DNA from: Culicoidibacter larvae
Lineage (GTDB): Bacteria; Bacillota_I; Bacilli_A; Culicoidibacterales; Culicoidibacteraceae
Assembly: GCF_005771635.1 (NCBI RefSeq)
Contig: NZ_VBWP01000015.1
Location: 1 to 36,869 of the forward strand
Direction: 5' to 3'
DNA: 36,869 bases
Part shown: positions 2,311-14,453 of the stretch, one piece after another
How positions within the stretch are numbered: position 1 is the stretch's first letter
Layout of the letters: every line of letters starts with the position of its first letter
The notes under the pieces: model-generated
Databases searched by the model: none
The model's input: the letters and a program-made list of their open reading frames with translations, nothing else
Told to the model about the DNA's origin: nothing
Made by a program: the position numbers and the translations under genes

Positions 2311-2764
2311 GACATTGCTAGAGGTTTTACAAAGGTTTCACTTGAGAAAACCGACCGAAGCCACCGTTTCAATAATGCTGCAGCAACTGCAGTACTGCGT
2401 AAACTAGCGAAAGGCCCAGAGTTGAGCCGGCGCAGATTCAACCGTTGCGGATAATACAGATCGTACAGGAGAGAATACTAAGGCACAACTGTACATAAAG
2501 ATCGAGAGCATGCTTATAACTAACGCAGATCCAAGGGTGTATTGCGGGGAGTTAGTTATGTCTAGGGAGTTCCCGAAAGCATGAGCGGTGGCGACACCAG
2601 TGAGTTAATGAGCTAAATAGTTCGTTGAATGACTGGTATCGCCAACGTTGCTCTCCTTATTATTTTTAAGTAAGTAATAGAGGAGAGTAACGAGCGCAAG
2701 CAAGGCACGTTATCCCGAAAGGGTATATTGTGTTATTGCTTACTGGTGTTAGGTAAACAATGAG
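2311..2764 (+). ncRNA. Candidate structured RNA or replication origin, ~450 bp, no ORF
   Basis: No gene is visible here, but local complementarity is dense. Examples are CTGCAG/CTGCAG (2378-2392); GTACAG/CTGTAC (2463-2468 with 2489-2494); ATAACTAAC/GTTAGTTAT (2516-2524 with 2551-2559, perfect, nine pairs); a GGTG-GCGA-CACC tetraloop hairpin near 2585; ACCAGT/ACTGGT enclosing 2595-2638; a 12-pair stem CGTTGCTCTCCT/AGGAGAGTAACG (2646-2657 with 2681-2692, one G-U); and GNRA-like loops near 2696 and 2717. It is more GC-rich than its surroundings and runs up to the ribosome site of the HUH gene. It could be a large regulatory RNA, a long structured leader, or a double-strand origin. Large RNAs next to replication proteins are known in plasmids (ARRPOF of Fusobacterium is one I recall), but I cannot confirm membership. 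Confidence 0.5.
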
Positions 2765-2776
2765 GTGAATGCTATA

Positions 2777-3649
2777 ATGAAACGACTTATATTTCTAAGA
2801 GAATCAAAACATAATGAAGTACTTGAACGATATAACTTTTTAACTGCAACTTGTTTAGGTTCTTACGGAAGTAATTTAGCAGCTTGGAAAAATCTTCAGG
2901 ATTTTGAATACAGTCAGGTCCGGAAGAGTGTGAAGAGTAATAATGTTGCAAAAGAATACTTAATCGAGTTACCTAATAGCTGGTTGGACCGAAAGGACCT
3001 TTCAGCATTATGTAAAAACTTAGTTGATCGTATATGTCCGGGTTTAGCTGTTGTAAGTTGGTTTGTTCGTGATGCAGCTGTCGGTGAGGATCACAACTTA
3101 CATTTAGTTGTCTTGTTTAGCTTACGCAGTTTTGCATCAGAGTATGCTAAGTATACTAGCAATTTTTATTTTGATACCGCCGGCCGTGTTTCCAGAGTAG
3201 CAAAACCTGGTTATACTTTGCGTTATGCAAAAGGGGATTATAAGGTCGATGCAGAGGGTAAGAAAATTGCTTCAGCTTCAAAGTTTACAGCTAAAGACAA
3301 GAGCTATGATCATCCTGGTCGTAAATACCATGTTAAATCATTAATTAAGCAATTCTTTGAAGAACAAGATATGCGGGATTATTCATTGCGCCGGCAATAT
3401 CACATTAAGAAGATTCGTTATAGTGGGGTAGTGAATAAAAAGGTGTATTATATGCTGAAGGATCATGCGGCATTAGTTGCTGAATTTTATCAAGTTTATC
3501 TAGAACTGGCTAGTTATTCAAAAGAAATAAAAAAAGCTGCACGTGTGATATTGCAGCAGGTTTATAATAAGCAACAAAAAGCAAAATTGATTAAGGAACG
3601 GATTGCTGCTGTAAGGTTTGGTTTGAACAAGATGTATAATTTGATATAA
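2777..3649 (+). CDS. MobA/MobL-like HUH protein, candidate replication initiator
   Basis: This 290-aa protein resembles the N-terminal nicking domain of MobA/MobL relaxases. A Tyr in LGSYGSNL (Tyr30) aligns with the nicking Tyr of AAYRAGEKL. EYLIELPNSWLDRKDLSAL (60-78) matches the strand and helix before the metal site, and DHNLHLVVLF (105-114) matches NPHAHIMLTT. Here the first metal His is Asn107, with His106 next to it and His109 kept, so the HUH motif is altered. The C-terminal third is basic. The start is ATG 2777 after GAGGTGA (spacing eight); the GTG at 2765 overlaps that site. A separate MobP2 relaxase serves transfer, and no other Rep is visible, so a replication role is my inference. 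A degenerate mobilisation protein is the alternative. Confidence 0.6.
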   Translation: MKRLIFLRESKHNEVLERYNFLTATCLGSYGSNLAAWKNLQDFEYSQVRKSVKSNNVAKEYLIELPNSWLDRKDLSALCKNLVDRICPGLAVVSWFVRDAAVGEDHNLHLVVLFSLRSFASEYAKYTSNFYFDTAGRVSRVAKPGYTLRYAKGDYKVDAEGKKIASASKFTAKDKSYDHPGRKYHVKSLIKQFFEEQDMRDYSLRRQYHIKKIRYSGVVNKKVYYMLKDHAALVAEFYQVYLELASYSKEIKKAARVILQQVYNKQQKAKLIKERIAAVRFGLNKMYNLI

Positions 3650-3777: not shown

Positions 3778-3811
3778 ATTATTATGTTTATCTTGAAGGG
3801 AGTTGGTTGAT

Positions 3812-4708
3812 TTGAGTAATAAGCTAAAATTAGGGACGCAAGTTAATGAAATCAGAAAAGGAAAAAATTATTCTCAAATCGAGCTTGCTTCTGAAGAATT
3901 AAATAAGAATACAATTGTTAGAATTGAAAAAAATGTTAACTCTCCATCTGTAGATACACTTAATATAATTGTAAATAATCTGGGTATAGATTTTTGCACT
4001 TTGACTAAGTATAATGAGTATGCTAATTTTACAGATTATTATAGGATTAAAGATTCAATTGAAGATTGTTTTGCAACATTAAACTGGAGTAAAGCAAAAC
4101 TGCAGTATGAGTTAATATCTAAAGATATGTATGACTCACTTCCACTGAGAGAGCAGCAGTATGTAGATATTATTCAAATAGAACTAGTTAAACATATAGA
4201 ACGAAACTATAGAAAAGCCGAATTACTTGCTAAAAAGTCTCTCAATAAAACTCTTAAAGCTGGGGCAGACTTCTTTTCTCATAATGAAATGGAGTTAATA
4301 AATATTATTTTTCAATTTGATCAATCAAGCCAACACATGGAACTGATTGAAAGAGTTCTAAATTGGCTAGAAGGACTTCCGGATAGTTTACAAGATTTTC
4401 CAGCATACCTGTTGCTACTAAATGGATATTCAACATATTTTTATGAAATTGAAGATTGGAACAAGTCATATACTTTTGCTTCCAAGGGTTATGATGTCGC
4501 AATTAGAAGTAATGGCTTAAAATTTATTCCTAGTTTTTTATTTACAAAGGGACTATGCTTGGTAAAATTAGGTCAAGATGTAGGTGAAGGTAAGAAGCTC
4601 TTAAAAGACTCATTAGAGTTTTGTAAATTGATAAGAATGGAAGATTTCTATGGTGCAATAATACATGAACTAGAAAAGTATAACATTAATTTAAATCAGG
4701 ACTTATAA
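3812..4708 (+). CDS. XRE-family regulator with TPR-like C-terminus (Rgg/PlcR type)
   Basis: This 298-aa protein is likely a cytoplasmic transcription regulator. Residues ~5-60 (GTQVNEIRKGKNYSQIELA, then NKNTIVRIEKNVNSPSVDTL) are a typical XRE helix-turn-helix. The rest is all-helical with repeating pairs (YRKAELLAKKSL, WNKSYTFASKGYDVAI, and KKLLKDSLEFCKLI), as in TPR-containing RRNPP regulators such as Rgg and PlcR, which often bind signal peptides. The start is TTG 3812 with AAGGGAG at a spacing of nine; the in-frame TTG at 3803 overlaps that site. No obvious signal-peptide gene lies beside it. Its immediate neighbour is the large RNA unit at 4760-5522, which it may control (inference). Confidence 0.8.
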   Translation: MSNKLKLGTQVNEIRKGKNYSQIELASEELNKNTIVRIEKNVNSPSVDTLNIIVNNLGIDFCTLTKYNEYANFTDYYRIKDSIEDCFATLNWSKAKLQYELISKDMYDSLPLREQQYVDIIQIELVKHIERNYRKAELLAKKSLNKTLKAGADFFSHNEMELINIIFQFDQSSQHMELIERVLNWLEGLPDSLQDFPAYLLLLNGYSTYFYEIEDWNKSYTFASKGYDVAIRSNGLKFIPSFLFTKGLCLVKLGQDVGEGKKLLKDSLEFCKLIRMEDFYGAIIHELEKYNINLNQDL

Positions 4709-4723
4709 TAGGGTCCTTTTTTT
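4698..4723 (+). terminator. Intrinsic terminator overlapping the regulator stop codon
   Basis: AGGAC (4698-4702) pairs with GTCCT (4713-4717), followed by a run of Ts. The stem begins inside the last codons of the regulator gene and ends two bases before the next -35 box. Confidence 0.6.
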
Positions 4724-4724
4724 A

Positions 4725-4753
4725 TTGACACAATTAAGACTCAATAGTATAAT
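4725..4753 (+). promoter_or_regulatory. Consensus promoter of the large RNA unit
   Basis: TTGACA (4725-4730), exactly 17 bases, TATAAT (4748-4753): a perfect sigma-A promoter. No gene starts downstream for 1 kb. Confidence 0.85.
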
Positions 4754-4759
4754 TAATAT

Positions 4760-5522
4760 ATAAATTTGAGTATATAGAAATTTAAAACAATAAAACATTG
4801 ATATTATGTACTCATATTTGAGTATTTATTGTTACCTATCAGTAATTAACTAGAAATAGTTTTGTCGATCTGTCCTGTTAATTACTGATAGGTGGTAATA
4901 ACCACAAATTCCATATATTGAGTCATTATAGACTCGTTGTGGTATTGGAAAAGGACAATATAGACATCTCCGCAAAAAGTTGATCTATATTGCCCTTCGG
5001 TACTACAGCAAATGCTGTAATATTTGACGCCATTAAAAGTTTAATGACACTAATCATTATACTAGAAAAGTAAGGATGGTACAAATGAAACGGTTAAATA
5101 ATGGAATTATTTTGTTCTCTGACAAGATATATTATTGAAACTGTGGATGAGTACAAGCAAGTACATGAGAATTGCGGCTCCTTGTAATCGGGCTTTGGAA
5201 TGTCGAGATGATCCCTAAAGTTGAAGCGATGGAAATGATATTGATCATAATCACCAAAAAAGGATTGTGATTTCTAGATCAGAACAGGTGACTAAACAAA
5301 TAATATAATAGCGATGTGTGGAAATCCAGCCCGACCGCTATGCTCTAAAAAAGAGTTAAATAGAAATCTATAACTTGTTGTATAGTAAGATCAACAAGGC
5401 AGCGCCTAAAGATAAGCGGTTGCTGACAACCTAATTTAATAGGACAACAGGAATTTATTATTCCTGTTGTATGTAATATAGAGTAGTACTTTTGGCTCCA
5501 ATTACCAAAGTACTGCTTTTTT
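4760..5522 (+). ncRNA. Candidate large structured non-coding RNA (~760 nt)
   Basis: The stretch is bounded by a perfect promoter and an intrinsic terminator (5483-5522) and holds no convincing ORF. A 17-codon frame at 5088 has only a weak ribosome site. It is built from consecutive hairpins: ACCTATCAGTAATTAAC (4834-4850) with its exact complement at 4877-4893; ACCACAA/TTGTGGT (4901-4907, 4937-4943) enclosing GAGTC/GACTC; GGACAATATAGA/TCTATATTGCCC (4953-4964, 4984-4995, one mismatch); TACAGC/GCTGTA (5004-5019); CATTAA/TTAATG (5031-5046); AATCAC/GTGATT (5249-5272); ATAGCG/CGCTAT (5308-5341); CTTGTTG/CAACAAG (5374-5398); and ACAACAGGAA/TTCCTGTTGT (5444-5470). Size and ornateness recall the ROOL and GOLLD classes found in Firmicutes phages and plasmids; I cannot assign it to either. 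Confidence 0.7.
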
Positions 5523-5558
5523 GGTTATACTAGTTCAACATATATTACATACAACAGG
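5461..5558. repeat. Inverted repeat pair 1 flanking the terminator
   Basis: CCTGTTGTATGTAATATA (5463-5480) and TATATTACATACAACAGG (5541-5558) are an exact 18-bp inverted repeat. The terminator of the large RNA lies between the arms. The left arm also pairs with 5444-5453, so two structures compete for it. The arms share the core TTCCTGnnGTATGTA with pair 2. Confidence 0.75.
5483..5522 (+). terminator. Intrinsic terminator of the large RNA unit
   Basis: GTAGTACTTTTGG (5483-5495) pairs with CCAAAGTACTGC (5505-5516), with one bulged T, followed by six Ts. Confidence 0.8.
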
Positions 5559-5577
5559 GGTAGTAATTAAATAGATT

Positions 5578-5729
5578 TGTTGTTCCTGCAGTATGTATCA
5601 GATGCTGGCAACTTATTTGAGTTGTTATCAATTTCTTGTAATAATAATTTCTTTCTTTTCCCCCCGAAAGTTCAATATTCATTTCAACTATGTTTTATTA
5701 ATGATCTGATACATGCTGCAAGGATAACA
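5578..5729. repeat. Inverted repeat pair 2, related to pair 1
   Basis: The arms at 5578-5603 and 5704-5729 match as an inverted repeat at 22 of 26 positions (core TTCCTGCAGTATGTATCAG and complement). The ~100-base centre is AT-rich, has no ORF and contains a run of six Cs. It may form the leader of the HNH-type gene that starts at 5758, or be a protein or recombinase site. Confidence 0.65.
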
Positions 5730-5757: not shown

Positions 5758-6266
5758 ATGGAAGAGTGGAAACAAATACCGGGATTAGATGTTTTCTATG
5801 AAGCAAGCAATACCGGTAAAATACAAAGACAATATAAAACTAAAGATAAGCTACTACAAGGATACCAAAGACGTGGTCGTCTTGTTGTAAAAGTGAAAAG
5901 AAACGGAAGAATGGTTGAGACGTCGTGGGCGAAACTCATTTGGAATGCATTCCATGGGCCGGTACCGAAAGGCGGATATGTTAGAAGAAAAGATTGCCGA
6001 CGAGGGTATGAGTTAGATAATTTAGTGTTACTATCAAATAAGCAGAAGTCGTTGTATATGAGTCAAATCAAGAACAACGATATTTTATTAGCGCAAGAGC
6101 AGCTGCACGACATTTACATGTCAGTTATCAAACGGTGTTAGATACTATTAATAATAAGATTAAAAAGCCAATATATCCATTAAGAAAGGCAACTGCTGAA
6201 GAACGTCAAAGTATTATTGGAATGGTTCGCCAAAACCGAGGTATTAATTATAACACTGATAGTTAA
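5758..6266 (+). pseudogene. NUMOD4/HNH-type endonuclease, frameshifted
   Basis: The first frame (127 codons, to 6141) opens with EEWKQIPGLDVFYEASNTGKI, a NUMOD4 DNA-binding motif of HNH homing endonucleases. It is followed by KLIWNAFHGPVPKG and ELDNLVLLS, the outer parts of an HNH fold. The central Asn-His pair is replaced by RRKDCRR, so catalysis is doubtful. The family's C-terminal helix-turn-helix is present only in a second frame, shifted by one base (SARAAARHLHVSYQTV), which continues to a stop at 6264-6266. A single-base deletion between about 6042 and 6085 explains this. No canonical slippery heptamer is present, so programmed frameshifting is unlikely. The start ATG has GGAGAG upstream. 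Confidence 0.65.
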
Positions 6267-7273: not shown

Positions 7274-7302
7274 TATGACAATACAAAAAAAGGAGGATGG
7301 AC

Positions 7303-9756
7303 ATGAAACAGTTCATCAAATTTATTTTTACATTCTTATTTGTGATGCTTATCGCATCAAGTACAATGCAGCCAGTATTCGCATCAAGTGAAAATAACCA
7401 AACGATTGAAAATACAACTGAAAACATCAATACTGAGGATAGTACAAATAATGAAGTGATTACTTCCAAAGTAGAAGATACTACCACTACTAATAGTACA
7501 ATCTCAAATAATCAATTATATAGTCGGCATGTTACTTATCAAATGGGAGACTATGATATTTTAGTGCCCTATAATGGCGTCATGACACACCCAAAAGATA
7601 TCGAAGGATTTGTTTACAATGATGGCGAGTATCCACAATATCCAAAAGGATGGCTCAATGCCGTTACTGAAAAATTAAACGAACAATTACTAAGTAATCA
7701 AAATAAAGCCTTACTACGTTCATCAGTTAGAATGTATGAGCAACTAGGTTATATAGATGGAAATGGATATCGTACATTTATTAATCGGTTAGAATCAGAT
7801 TCAAAAGTGGCTTTTTGTGCACAGCGGACAAATGATCCAGTTTCATACTCTGATAATTTTTCTGACCCAAGTCACTTTAATAATATTAAAATGACTCAAG
7901 CGCTTTATGTAGCATGGGCAGATGCGTACGGAATTATGGGTAATAATGATACTAATTATAAATATGTTGTTGCACAATCAAGTTCATGGTACGGCGAAGG
8001 AACAGCTGATTATTGGTCAAGTGTTTATGCGCATGGGTATGGAGATGTGTCTGGTAAATATCGACAAGTAAATGATAAGGTAAATGCTTTATACAACGGT
8101 AGCAGCAGTCTAAATTTTACAGAAACGAATTTATCTTCTCATTTCGATCCAATAACAAATACTATCACTACAACAAGTTTTAAAATTAAGGATGACTCTG
8201 CAAGTACAGATGTTGTAACTAATATTAAAAGTGGTTATTACATCACGAAGGTATCTGATAATACACCAGTAACAAAACTTACAAAAGGGAATGAATATGT
8301 TATTCGTACTGCTAATTTAATTGCTGATGAGTCAATCTCACTTAAAGGTACAGTAACTATGCCAAACCCACAAGCTGATATTGTTTATCCACCAATGGGG
8401 TTTGAAGATTTGCAAGCATTATTTTACTACACAGGTAACGATCCAAAATCAGCTTCAGCAACACTAACAGCTGACATCGCACCGGCATACATTCAAATTG
8501 GTGGATTTAAAGCCAATGAAGATTTTGAAGTGTTACCGGATACAGAATATGGGCTATATGATAATCAAGCTCGTGAATTAACTCGAGTGATGACGGATGA
8601 AACCGGAAAATTTTTAACAGCTCCAGTAAGTGTTCTGCTGTTTGATGGCGCAACCTATATTCGTGAAGTGAATACTGCGGATCCAACGCAATATGCACTT
8701 GATTATGAGAAGTATTATTTACCGGACTTAACTGATCCAAACACGACAATTGATTTAGTTGATGGTGTCTATTATATTAATGATAATCAAATGCTGATCA
8801 ATGAGTATGTACGTGCAGGAGAAATGTCGATCTATAAAGACGACTTTGAAACTGGGGCACCACTTGCAGATGCAGAGTTCAAAGTAACTCGTCTAACTGG
8901 TGAAGCCTGTGTTGAAGAAACTGATTCAAGTGATAATAATACTGAGTCAAATACAACTGATACAAACTCAACTGAAAATACAACAGGTGTTATTGACTGC
9001 CAAGTTTCATTTACAGTCAAAACAGGAGCTGATGGATATTACAACTTTACTGAGGAACAATTAGATCAATTATTATATGGTGATTATGTCGCCGAAGAAA
9101 TTGTTGCTCCAAATGGATACATCCCGAGTATAGAGAAAGCCTATTTCACCGTTGATAGTGAAAGTAAAGTTATCCGCTTGGTCTTCCATAATCAAAAAAT
9201 CAAAGCACTTGTTGAAACCGGCCAGCCATTTGATATGATGATCATCATTGGTGTTGGAATTGGTGGAGCAGGGATGTTGTTATTTGCTTTCCGTAAAAAG
9301 AAACTCTCTAAAAAGCTGACTAATACTGCCGCTGCTATCGCATTAACATTAGCTTTAGCTGGTGGAACCGTACTTGCTAATCAAGTAGGCGTATTTGCCG
9401 CAACTGAAGATGATATCGAATATATTGAACCATTGTTACCTGATGCAACCGCTCCGACCGACCCAATTGAAGGTATCACAAAGGTGCCTGAGGTTGATAC
9501 TATTGTTATTACACCGGATACACCAGTCTCTGAAGTAGGCACAATTGATTCAAATACCAGTAGTGCAACAACTGCCGGAGCTGGTCAATCAGATGTATCG
9601 GGAACAGAGGCAACTAGCGGATCACTTCCATTTGCCGGTGAGCATATTGTTGAATATGCATTAATCGGTGCAGGCATGCTTGCATTTGTAGGATTACTTA
9701 TTGTTTTTAATGTCGTACACAAAAAATCGAAGAAAAAAGAAGAATCACAACAATAG
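7303..9756 (+). CDS. Large surface protein with thioester-like and SpaA domains and two sorting signals
   Basis: 817 aa. A signal peptide (residues 1-28, ending PVFA) leads into a Thr/Asn-rich stretch. Residues ~165-260 resemble a thioester (TED/TQXA) adhesin domain: Cys172 in VAFCAQR and Gln225 in VVAQSSSWYGEG could form the Cys-Gln bond. Residues ~505-632 are a SpaA-type prealbumin-like domain. Then LVETG (636-640), a membrane helix and RKKK form a sorting-signal-like end, but the frame continues. A second signal-like segment (~673-700, ending VGVFA), an acidic/Thr-rich stretch, and LPFAG (775-779) with a helix and KKSKKKEE tail follow. This looks like a fusion of two sortase substrates. 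ATG 7303 is six bases after AGGAGG; the ATG at 7297 is too close. A mating-contact adhesin role is inferred. Confidence 0.75.
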   Translation: MKQFIKFIFTFLFVMLIASSTMQPVFASSENNQTIENTTENINTEDSTNNEVITSKVEDTTTTNSTISNNQLYSRHVTYQMGDYDILVPYNGVMTHPKDIEGFVYNDGEYPQYPKGWLNAVTEKLNEQLLSNQNKALLRSSVRMYEQLGYIDGNGYRTFINRLESDSKVAFCAQRTNDPVSYSDNFSDPSHFNNIKMTQALYVAWADAYGIMGNNDTNYKYVVAQSSSWYGEGTADYWSSVYAHGYGDVSGKYRQVNDKVNALYNGSSSLNFTETNLSSHFDPITNTITTTSFKIKDDSASTDVVTNIKSGYYITKVSDNTPVTKLTKGNEYVIRTANLIADESISLKGTVTMPNPQADIVYPPMGFEDLQALFYYTGNDPKSASATLTADIAPAYIQIGGFKANEDFEVLPDTEYGLYDNQARELTRVMTDETGKFLTAPVSVLLFDGATYIREVNTADPTQYALDYEKYYLPDLTDPNTTIDLVDGVYYINDNQMLINEYVRAGEMSIYKDDFETGAPLADAEFKVTRLTGEACVEETDSSDNNTESNTTDTNSTENTTGVIDCQVSFTVKTGADGYYNFTEEQLDQLLYGDYVAEEIVAPNGYIPSIEKAYFTVDSESKVIRLVFHNQKIKALVETGQPFDMMIIIGVGIGGAGMLLFAFRKKKLSKKLTNTAAAIALTLALAGGTVLANQVGVFAATEDDIEYIEPLLPDATAPTDPIEGITKVPEVDTIVITPDTPVSEVGTIDSNTSSATTAGAGQSDVSGTEATSGSLPFAGEHIVEYALIGAGMLAFVGLLIVFNVVHKKSKKKEESQQ

Positions 9757-12527: not shown

Positions 12528-14453
12528 ATGAGATTTGTCACATTTATTAAATATGCGCTTTTTGGTGTTCTTATTTCAGTGTTAATTACCATGGTTGTAC
12601 AAGTAGGATTGTATCTATTTGAGCATGGCTTATTTTCTTTTACCGATATAGATATGAATCAAATCGTGTGGTGGAACAACTACTCATGGATAATATTTGG
12701 AGTTATTATGCTCAAACCATTCGTTGAACTCTTTATTTCAGTGAAAGGATACTCAGATCATCACTCACATGGGAGTGCAAGATGGGGTTATAGGATTGAA
12801 CTTTTTCTGACATCTAGGTATGTAGCCAACGTTCAATTGATAAATTCGCTTTTATCAAGCTTTGTTCCAAGAGATCAAAAAAGTGGTGGCGGGCTAGTTC
12901 TTAAAAGTAATATCTTTGGCCAATACGTCGATGCTGATGATAATCATGCAACAGTGATCGCAACGACCGGTGGAGGGAAATCGCAATTGGTCGCAATTCC
13001 CACCGCTAAATCGATTGCCGATAATGGCGAGTCAGTTATTATTGGGGATGTGAAAGGTGAGATTTATGATGAGATGGCCGGATATTTTAAGTCAAAAGGT
13101 TATGCGATCAAAGTTTTAAACTTATACGATCCACGGCGCAGTGATTCATACAATCCTATGGCTCAGATTATTAAGGACTATCAAGCCGGCCGGGTGAGTG
13201 AGGCAACTACCTTACTTAAATCATTTACGCATACGCTGCATGTCAGTACTTCATCTGGAGATGATAAAATATGGGGCAAACTTTCAAAACAATTACATGA
13301 TGCCTTGTTTCTTGCCTTGCTTGAAACTGGTAAATATGAACAAGTAACCGTTGCCGGCACAATGAATTTAAAGAACCGATTATCGGATACTGAAAATGGA
13401 TTAGATGACTTCTTTAGTTCGTTACCGACAAGTTCGGATGCAAGACGTTCGTATAGTGCAGTGAAAGAGGCGGCACAGTCGCCAAAGACACGCTCAAGTA
13501 TCATGATTAATTTTGATGCCAATTTAGATATCTTTAATGACCGGCTGCTTGCTCAAATGACCTCTATCAATACTATTGATATTGAATCAATTGGGAAAGA
13601 AAAGACCGCGGTGTTTGTCATTATTCCTGATGCGGAAACATCACGCCATGAGTTAGTCTCATTTTTCATTCACCAGGTATACTATACACTCGTCAACGTA
13701 GCCGTCGCAAACGGTGGCCGCTTACCGGTCCGTACCAATTTCTTACTTGATGAGTTTGGGAACTTACCAAAAATTCCGGAAATGAAAGGAAAACTTGGCG
13801 TCTCTCGTTCCCGGGGGATGCGTTTCTATTTATTTATTCAATCGTTTTCGCAGTTATATGAGATATATGGTGATCATGTCGCAAAATCAATTCTTGATAT
13901 GACCAACGACACCATCTATATTGGGACCAACGGTCTAGAAACCGCTGAAAACATTTCCAAGCGAATTGGTTCTAAAACCATGAAAGTCCAGTCGAGAAGT
14001 TTTTCGCCTTGGGCAATCCTACAAAGCAATCGTAATGAGTCAAATCATGCAAGAGCGTTACTGAGTGCCGATGAATTAATGAACCGACTCAAACCAAACC
14101 GGATTGTACTATTACGATCTAAAACACCACCACAGTATCTTAAACTACGGCCGTGGTGGAAACAAAAACCGAAAAATATTGAACCAATGGAACTGCCGTA
14201 TGGAACCCATACAAGCTTAGATCCATTTTTTACTGAAGAAAAAGTCATTGTTCAATCAAAATCAACCAACGGCTTAATGCAACAAGTTGAACGCTTACTC
14301 ACTGAAGATGAGTACAGTTACATTAAAGTCTTTGAGTTAGAGGAGATTGAGGCTAAGACTTTATATCATCATATTATGCACTTTGCGACAAAAGGCGCAA
14401 TCAGTGAACAAAGTATAGAGGCAATCATGCCTTTATTTCAATCTATTCTATAA
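12528..14453 (+). CDS. VirD4/TraG-type coupling protein (T4CP)
   Basis: 641 aa. This inner-membrane ATPase brings the relaxase-DNA complex to the secretion channel. Two N-terminal membrane helices (~8-32 and ~50-68) are followed by the Walker A motif TTGGGKSQ (about 146-153), then GDVKGEIYDEMAGYFK, typical of TraG/VirD4 proteins. The Walker B region NFLLDEFGNLPKIP is at ~403-416, followed by SRSRGMRFYLFIQSFSQL, the conserved sensor region. Length and motif order agree with firmicute T4CPs such as TrsK. The ATG is two bases after the previous stop, with GGAG upstream, so coupling is likely. Confidence 0.93.
   Translation: MRFVTFIKYALFGVLISVLITMVVQVGLYLFEHGLFSFTDIDMNQIVWWNNYSWIIFGVIMLKPFVELFISVKGYSDHHSHGSARWGYRIELFLTSRYVANVQLINSLLSSFVPRDQKSGGGLVLKSNIFGQYVDADDNHATVIATTGGGKSQLVAIPTAKSIADNGESVIIGDVKGEIYDEMAGYFKSKGYAIKVLNLYDPRRSDSYNPMAQIIKDYQAGRVSEATTLLKSFTHTLHVSTSSGDDKIWGKLSKQLHDALFLALLETGKYEQVTVAGTMNLKNRLSDTENGLDDFFSSLPTSSDARRSYSAVKEAAQSPKTRSSIMINFDANLDIFNDRLLAQMTSINTIDIESIGKEKTAVFVIIPDAETSRHELVSFFIHQVYYTLVNVAVANGGRLPVRTNFLLDEFGNLPKIPEMKGKLGVSRSRGMRFYLFIQSFSQLYEIYGDHVAKSILDMTNDTIYIGTNGLETAENISKRIGSKTMKVQSRSFSPWAILQSNRNESNHARALLSADELMNRLKPNRIVLLRSKTPPQYLKLRPWWKQKPKNIEPMELPYGTHTSLDPFFTEEKVIVQSKSTNGLMQQVERLLTEDEYSYIKVFELEEIEAKTLYHHIMHFATKGAISEQSIEAIMPLFQSIL

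Follow-up and report, generated by a model that had tools for sequence, protein, structure and literature searches.

GOLLD RNAs are found in phages and prophages, often near tRNA islands, and to our knowledge neither GOLLD nor ROOL has a known function. In plasmid pCF10, Anti-Q promotes termination of PrgQ at IRS1, which PrgQ in excess escapes (PMC8265641, PMC7117660). EGeRS1 of pLS20, rich in inverted repeats and 420-750 bp in size, precedes establishment operons, and EGeRS1-B has no sigma-A promoter and a raised GC content (PMC8708921). The locus described in this work resides in the window, that is the whole stretch of 36,869 nucleotides analysed, which corresponds to the entire contig C15 of the 2.5-Mb genome of Culicoidibacter larvae. 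Genes encoding a coupling protein, a VirB4-like ATPase, a MobL relaxase, ParM, ParA and a SpaA adhesin were recognized by Pfam, and by gene content the contig is a conjugative plasmid. Next to the ParA gene, 19 copies of the 24-bp tandem repeat AAAACTCAATATAAAAGTAGATAT, 95% identical, cover positions 1628-2087, and may represent iterons or a partition site.

The structured RNA and its copies

The original prediction placed a large structured non-coding RNA, equipped with a promoter and a terminator of its own, past the regulator gene, which ends in a terminator-like hairpin found by scan (4698-4717, + strand), and the features it lists are present. The promoter, TTGACA-17-TATAAT at 4725-4753 (+ strand), is indeed perfect (12/12), and ranks first among 28 promoter-like sites in a scan of 4 kb. 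Folding of the region 4762-5526 (765 nt) gave an MFE of -214.8, compared with -157.4±7.5 for dinucleotide shuffles (z -7.66), and none of the 20 shuffles equalled it. The exact 17-bp stem is formed by ACCTATCAGTAATTAAC (4834-4850) and GTTAATTACTGATAGGT (4877-4893), and extends outward within helix P1 (4824-4903, + strand). The intrinsic terminator at 5482-5522 (+ strand), recognized by eye, consists of a 13-bp stem, a loop exceeding the limit of the scan, and a T6 run. As predicted, convincing ORFs are missing: none of at least 50 codons is found on the + strand inside the RNA region, and the sole + strand ORF with a good Shine-Dalgarno sequence, at 5085, has 17 codons. The predicted extent of about 760 nt stands in part. 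Start and first terminator had been placed correctly, and delimit a short form (4760-5522, + strand) supported by fold z-score, homology and covariation, but by homology with the other three copies the unit probably runs to about 5640. The resulting long form (4760-5640, + strand) is suggested by the 3' ends of those copies, as seen in the 3' alignment and in leader folds. The window homologue of their terminator is located at about 5612-5634, downstream of 5522; its U-tract is poor or lost here, and another terminator, that at 5482-5522, stands upstream of the conserved 3' tail.

Four copies of the RNA have been identified in the genome, on four elements. Those in C18 and C21, small contigs corresponding to small plasmids, are 76% identical to the window RNA. 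The fourth, diverged copy resides in the 473-kb contig C1, and was found by the core covariance model R1 (E 6e-5); with the refitted model R2, built from C18 and C21 only, its E value is 1.6e-7. The folds of the two most similar relatives have z-scores of -7.8 and -10.5. The sense promoter lies at the same place in C18 (12/12, spacer 16) and C21 (11/12), and scores only 9/12 in C1, and a 3'-end terminator is present in the C1, C18 and C21 copies. The C1 copy marks the left end of an integrated conjugative element of about 35 kb with TcpC, VirB4 and SpaA genes, the right end of which carries a UPF0236 transposase. A 13-bp direct repeat, AAATCCTGAAGAG, flanks this element (L018 3656-3668 and L076 14098-14110, both pieces of C1). 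TTGACA precedes the right repeat, and TACAAT follows the left one after 7 bp; that circularization might thereby create a junction promoter for the RNA is doubtful, the spacing being 20.

Other segments are shared by the carriers. The C18 and C21 contigs end in the same sequences (L008, from C21, 1-240 and 9753-9865; L009, from C18, 14424-14663 and 1-113), and have several modules in common at 85-99% identity; by sequence, they may be either two related plasmids or one co-integrate split by assembly. An identical stretch of 105 bp, which includes a long inverted repeat, gives equal model matches and is possibly an origin of transfer or replication, is found on three plasmids (window 2586-2691; L008 2401-2506; L009 6391-6496, - strand), upstream of a gene encoding a 294-aa protein (window 2765-3649). 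This protein is 84-92% identical among the three plasmids, and C18 and C21 carry in addition a paralogue 29% identical to it. It matches no Pfam family, has no relative in viral contigs and a single weak match among plasmids, and its structure prediction is too poor for use (pLDDT 47); its sequence presumably recalls MobA/MobL relaxases, the full HUH motif being missing. In C18, ORF translations inspected by eye suggest that the stretch L009 8961-14396 is probably a modified-peptide operon, as it encodes membrane proteins and an ABC transporter ATPase together with two or three proteins of radical-SAM-like type.

Covariation was evaluated over 51 core pairs of the four copies, in an alignment obtained with the C18/C21 model, and compared with 500 shuffles. 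In this alignment, which was fitted to the structure tested and is thus biased towards it, 15 of the 51 pairs are changed on both sides (5.8±1.6 in shuffles), 94.4% of the cells are paired (85.3±1.5 in shuffles), and the covariation score is 0.33 (0.14±0.03 in shuffles). None of the 500 shuffles reached the real core in double changes, pairing or covariation score, and slid registers gave 1-2 double changes and 27-50% pairing. Nine pairs changed on both sides were counted across copies in helices 1 and 2, and in P1 such changes are evident on inspection, the window having CCTATCAGTAATTAAC/GTTAATTACTGATAGG where C21 has CCTAAGAGGAACCCA/TGGGTTACTGTTAGG and C1 has CTATGGATAGT/ACTATTCATAG. Since the family is known from one genome, and C18 and C21 are close, the covariation is limited to three independent lineages. 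The copies show a structure under selection. Covariation among them backs the claim of a large structured non-coding RNA, and the presence of compensatory changes, with no protein frame conserved, favours this reading over a coding one. Downstream of P1 the alignment includes hairpins P4 (4956-4992, pairing 4956-4964 with 4984-4992), also seen in the folds, P5 (5006-5017) and P6 (5031-5046), all on the + strand; P6 does not vary among the four copies. In each copy, folds of the + strand are more stable than those of the - strand.

The 5' domain is organized differently. In each copy an inverted-repeat search found two interleaved helices, in the order A<B<A'<B'. In the window, helix A pairs 4767-4777 with 4804-4814 (11 bp; 4767-4814, + strand), and helix B 4786-4794 with 4825-4833 (9 bp; 4786-4833, + strand), a helix pair reached by one of 200 shuffles. 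The two arms measure 11 and 22 bp in C18, 10 and 27 bp in C1; over the copies, 0-3 of 200 shuffles were as good, and the first helix of C21 is weak (7 bp). C1, C18 and the window have arm sequences with no relation to one another. No linker separates A and B in C18, and we infer that both helices cannot fully form in one molecule, which might denote either a switch or intermolecular pairing.

Relatives were looked for in several collections. Blastn searches against plasmid (72,556 records) and phage collections gave no match to the RNA outside the source genome. Exact RNA patterns had nine matches in viral contigs and two in genome contigs, none accompanied by a second RNA feature, and several hundred genomes from the class and the phylum yielded no accepted relative with models R1 and R3. 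Matches of 19-24 bits in other genomes lack all the conserved blocks and were rejected as chance; reverse-strand matches of R1, R2 and R3 over P1 were also discarded, as they reflect the palindrome of P1 itself. The RNA is a real, new, structure-conserved family of one sampled lineage.

Regulator, 3' tail and a predicted antisense promoter

A conserved block, ATTATA..AGAAAA followed by ACAA, reads as a promoter on the opposite strand. In the window this candidate antisense promoter is TTGTAC-17-TATAAT (5056-5084, - strand), with a perfect -10 and a weak -35 (3/6), for a total of 9/12, and an aligned site occurs in all copies. C21 and C18 both have TTGTCA-17-TATAAT (11/12), C1 has TTGTGA-18-TATAAT with an extended -10 (10/12). 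The chance of such sites at a given position is 6e-5 and 3e-5 for the two 11/12 sites, which are non-independent, 5e-4 for the 10/12 site, and 6e-3 for the window. In the 1.6 kb scanned in C21 and C18, the top two sites are the sense promoter and the antisense one. Promoter position and folds predict an antisense, counter-transcribed RNA of about 107 nt with three hairpins (4942-5049, - strand). The three hairpins are shared by the predicted antisense RNAs of all copies; the last one is P4 read backwards, is terminator-like, and is presumed to act as antisense terminator, with a T6 run in C1 and a weak U-tract in the other copies. Antisense sequences are identical at 101 of 108 positions between C18 and C21, and about 50% identical between C1 and the rest. 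Such divergence implies that each element would be regulated separately, with C18 and C21 as the exception.

The 17-codon mini-ORF (5085-5138, + strand, MKRLNNGIILFSDKIYY) adjoins the antisense promoter. Its start codon is found at a homologous place in all four copies, but coding is not supported. The peptides are 17, 45, 59 and 40 aa long; three copies share a short N-terminal stretch, C1 nothing. Differences between C21 and C18 are all non-synonymous, stop codon included, and an alignment gap shifts the frame relative to the window. The ACAA-ATG block had been considered as the ribosome-binding site of a conserved leader peptide; this was dropped as the main reading, given the lack of peptide conservation and the agreement of the block with an antisense promoter.

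The regulator gene upstream of the RNA (3803-4708, + strand) encodes a 301-aa protein. It had been described as XRE/TPR, which is right (Pfam HTH_3, 5e-6); the type, overlooked at that time, is RRNPP (PlcR/ComR/PrgX), as denoted by PDB matches to PlcR (E 4.8e-8, residues 9-292), ComR (0.0018) and PrgX (0.028). The C18 regulator matches PrgX (2.2e-5), and that of C21 is of the HTH/TPR type, as assigned by HTH and length only. In C1 a related protein is encoded at the right end of the element, and circularization would therefore bring it upstream of the RNA. C18 and C21 have a small divergent XRE gene interposed between regulator and RNA. About three copies of the palindrome TACAAGATTTCTTGTA, spotted by eye, lie beside it in C21 (L008 4611-4760), and are likely operators. 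About ten RRNPP-type regulators are encoded in the genome, and those checked have no RNA nearby. As an example, two are adjacent at C10 9755-12006, one 53% identical to that of the window, and the RNA is absent from their surroundings. Since these regulators are frequent without the RNA, adjacency is weaker evidence than it appears, supportive but not decisive.

At the other end of the unit, the tail CCTGCAGTRTGTATCAGA (5585-5602, + strand) is identical in 17 of 18 columns in all four copies, and directly precedes the terminator in C1, C18 and C21. Its complement, the partner CTGATACATGCTGCARGGATA (5706-5726, + strand), is identical in all four copies, and is located 103-160 nt past the tail and 20-35 nt before the Shine-Dalgarno sequence of the first downstream gene. 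Within each copy tail and partner can pair over 20+ bp (-34.8 to -37.0 kcal/mol), and the few tail differences between copies preserve G-U pairs with the partner. Invariance of the partner and tail changes that keep G-U pairs favour a role in the read-through RNA, or a trans-acting tail. The tail partner is absent from 395 genomes of the class. Between terminator and partner all four copies carry a run of six to eight C, spotted by eye (window 5660-5670; about 6212-6220 in L008, 4633-4638 in L018, from C1, and 2707-2712 in L009), which could mask the downstream Shine-Dalgarno sequence.

The first downstream gene in the window encodes a NUMOD4/HNH protein (5758-6141, + strand, Pfam), with a frameshift near 6080 and the other frame running to about 6267; an intact homologue of 182 aa follows the C1 copy. 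In both the window and C1 an adhesin and T4SS genes come next. The SpaA-fold surface adhesin of the window (7297-9756, + strand; Pfam SpaA, 1.4e-10) belongs to the downstream conjugation block, which is marked by the T4SS coupling protein (12528-14453, + strand; Pfam T4SS-DNA_transf, 2.7e-64). In C21 the RNA is followed by a YopX-type gene and other small accessory genes. No adhesin and T4SS operon is found in the C18 and C21 contigs; genes downstream of the RNA are therefore not always conjugation genes.

Alternative readings of the unit

The original prediction had missed the antisense promoter, the pairing of tail and partner, the assignment of the regulator to the PlcR/PrgX type, and the position of the RNA, which heads a downstream gene block. 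These features point to a regulated leader, or attenuator, over a free-standing ornate RNA. Promoter, terminators, predicted counter-transcript, regulator and adhesin/T4SS block match the logic of pCF10, and the unit is accordingly read here, with moderate confidence, as an antisense-controlled giant leader RNA that would work like PrgQ/Anti-Q. The strong sigma-70-type promoter, plausibly set by the adjacent RRNPP-type regulator, would make a highly structured sense RNA of 0.76-0.94 kb, normally stopping at the terminator(s), short of the gene that opens the downstream block. The internal promoter on the opposite strand would constitutively make the three-hairpin antisense RNA of about 107 nt against the P4-P6 region. 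When antisense RNA is in excess the nascent sense RNA would be paired, and termination would win; when sense RNA is in excess, because the regulator is relieved or the element enters a cell without antisense RNA, transcription would read through into the operon. In the read-through RNA, tail and partner would form a stem of 20+ bp before the ribosome-binding site, and may set processing or translation. The RNA would probably act as a brake on the genes that each element uses to spread or settle. The copies, their covariation, the promoter, terminator and pairing sequences and the protein families are the observed base of this scheme. From them we infer the production of both RNAs, their meeting and each regulatory step. 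When the antisense target was kept unpaired in silico, the terminator fold was unchanged in the window, C18 and C21, and 15 nt were altered in C1 only, an outcome that does not support a simple thermodynamic switch. The target lies about 500 nt before the terminator; in known attenuators it is nearer.

The rival explanations rank, in falling probability, as ornate RNA, ColE1-like primer, DNA-level element and type I toxin-antitoxin. The first of them, unlikely but the best of the set, holds that the unit is a free-standing RNA of the GOLLD/ROOL kind, a folded and possibly multimeric particle, the downstream genes being mere neighbours. Size class, ornate fold, carriage by mobile elements and strong sequence drift with the structure kept are all in line with it, and the C18 arms (11 and 22 bp, no linker), which cannot both form in one molecule, could mean intermolecular pairing. 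Yet the carriers are plasmids and an integrated conjugative element rather than phages, ARAGORN found no tRNA gene near any copy, and an internal antisense promoter, and a tail pairing into the downstream leader, would not be expected. Rfam models gave no match at gathering score to the window, C18, C21 or C1, only sub-threshold chance matches, and those of GOLLD, ROOL, OLE and ARRPOF were unmatched up to an E value of 10 in the window, 1 in C18 and C21, and 5 in C1. The original prediction holds for the structured RNA unit, and fails for its membership in one of these classes.

Less likely again is a new class of large mobile-element RNAs, in which the same core fold serves four elements, the interleaved 5' arms of 22-27 bp would join separate molecules (or form a switch with two states), and the shared tail would let the RNAs of co-resident plasmids and an integrated conjugative element act in trans on the downstream leaders of one another, each element remaining under the control of its own specific antisense RNA.

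Lower in rank, and quite improbable, is a ColE1-type replication primer, the sense RNA being a preprimer similar to RNA II, and the antisense RNA a copy-number inhibitor similar to RNA I. A strong promoter and a long structured sense RNA are common to both systems, and the predicted antisense RNA of about 107 nt, with its three hairpins, presumably resembles RNA I closely in form. Against this, the Rfam RNAI model matched neither strand of the copies, terminators are found at the 3' end, one copy resides on an integrated element, and the C-run would have to be on the other strand to give a hybrid of the RNA II type. The 19 iteron-like repeats and ParA suggest another origin, or partition site, on the window plasmid, and the near-identical antisense RNAs of C18 and C21 (101/108) would make the two incompatible, if they are separate plasmids.

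It is more improbable still that the element works at the DNA level, its hairpins acting in single-stranded DNA at or after transfer as single-strand promoter, single-strand initiation site or origin of transfer, or as an establishment sequence similar to EGeRS1. The tail includes TTCCTGC, which we take to be reminiscent of P-type nick sites, and the unit heads an accessory or transfer block on conjugative elements. EGeRS1 provides a precedent, as inverted-repeat-rich regions of several hundred bp precede establishment operons there (PMC8708921), and strong predicted RNA or single-stranded DNA folding and the occurrence of several diverged copies are shared as well. EGeRS1, however, lacks a sigma-A promoter and is high in GC; here most copies carry consensus duplex promoters on the 5' side and terminators on the 3' side, the promoter of the window is perfect, and the GC content of the core is about 0.33. 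The plasmid collection in which blastn found no match to the window RNA may or may not hold pLS20. The higher stability of + strand folds in all four copies also disfavours a DNA-level role; G-U versus A-C changes between C21 and C18 (11 versus 7, and 8 versus 12) are too even to speak for a strand, or for the RNA or DNA level. Finally, a type I toxin-antitoxin maintenance module, in which the mini-ORF at 5085 encodes a toxic or signal peptide silenced by the antisense RNA, is suggested by a Shine-Dalgarno sequence and start codon which the four copies all have at the homologous place, beside the antisense promoter, but is highly improbable, as the peptides share little, the frame is not maintained, the antisense RNA would not cover the ORF, and a peptide leaves 800 nt of structure unexplained.

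Comparison with pCF10

The antisense-controlled leader finds its closest parallel in the PrgX/PrgQ/Anti-Q/IRS1 system of pCF10, and in TraA/mD of pAD1. In these systems, as here, an RRNPP regulator is encoded beside the promoter of a structured leader, a small branched antisense RNA (here predicted) is directed against the leader, terminators precede the operon, and the leader holds a mini-ORF; in the window and C1, an adhesin and then T4SS genes follow. The systems differ in several respects. The leader is 0.76-0.94 kb long here, 380-530 nt in pCF10, for which no counterpart to the covarying core, the interleaved 5' helices and the tail-partner pair is described (PMC8265641, PMC7117660). No sequence match between pCF10 and the window RNA was found. 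The pCF10 leader encodes an inhibitor peptide; here the mini-ORF starts at a homologous place in all copies, with a peptide that is not conserved. The regulator gene is on the + strand, upstream of and codirectional with the RNA; the antisense RNA is therefore not the 5' part of the regulator transcript, unlike in pCF10. Given the differences in regulator orientation, size and fold, and antisense transcription being predicted, membership in the PrgQ/Anti-Q family is not claimed.

The unit adds to the known repertoire a large RNA family, supported by covariation, which current RNA libraries miss. It ties an ornate RNA of mobile elements to a concrete, testable setting, made of a predicted antisense RNA, a regulator of the peptide-receptor type, terminators, and a block of conjugation or accessory genes. 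As a relative in kind of GOLLD and ROOL endowed with an obvious circuit, it may allow the purpose of such large RNAs to be tested by ordinary reporters. A further suggestion is that control of transfer or establishment by RNA, known in detail from pCF10, has an unrelated and more elaborate counterpart in a branch of the same class that is poorly sampled.
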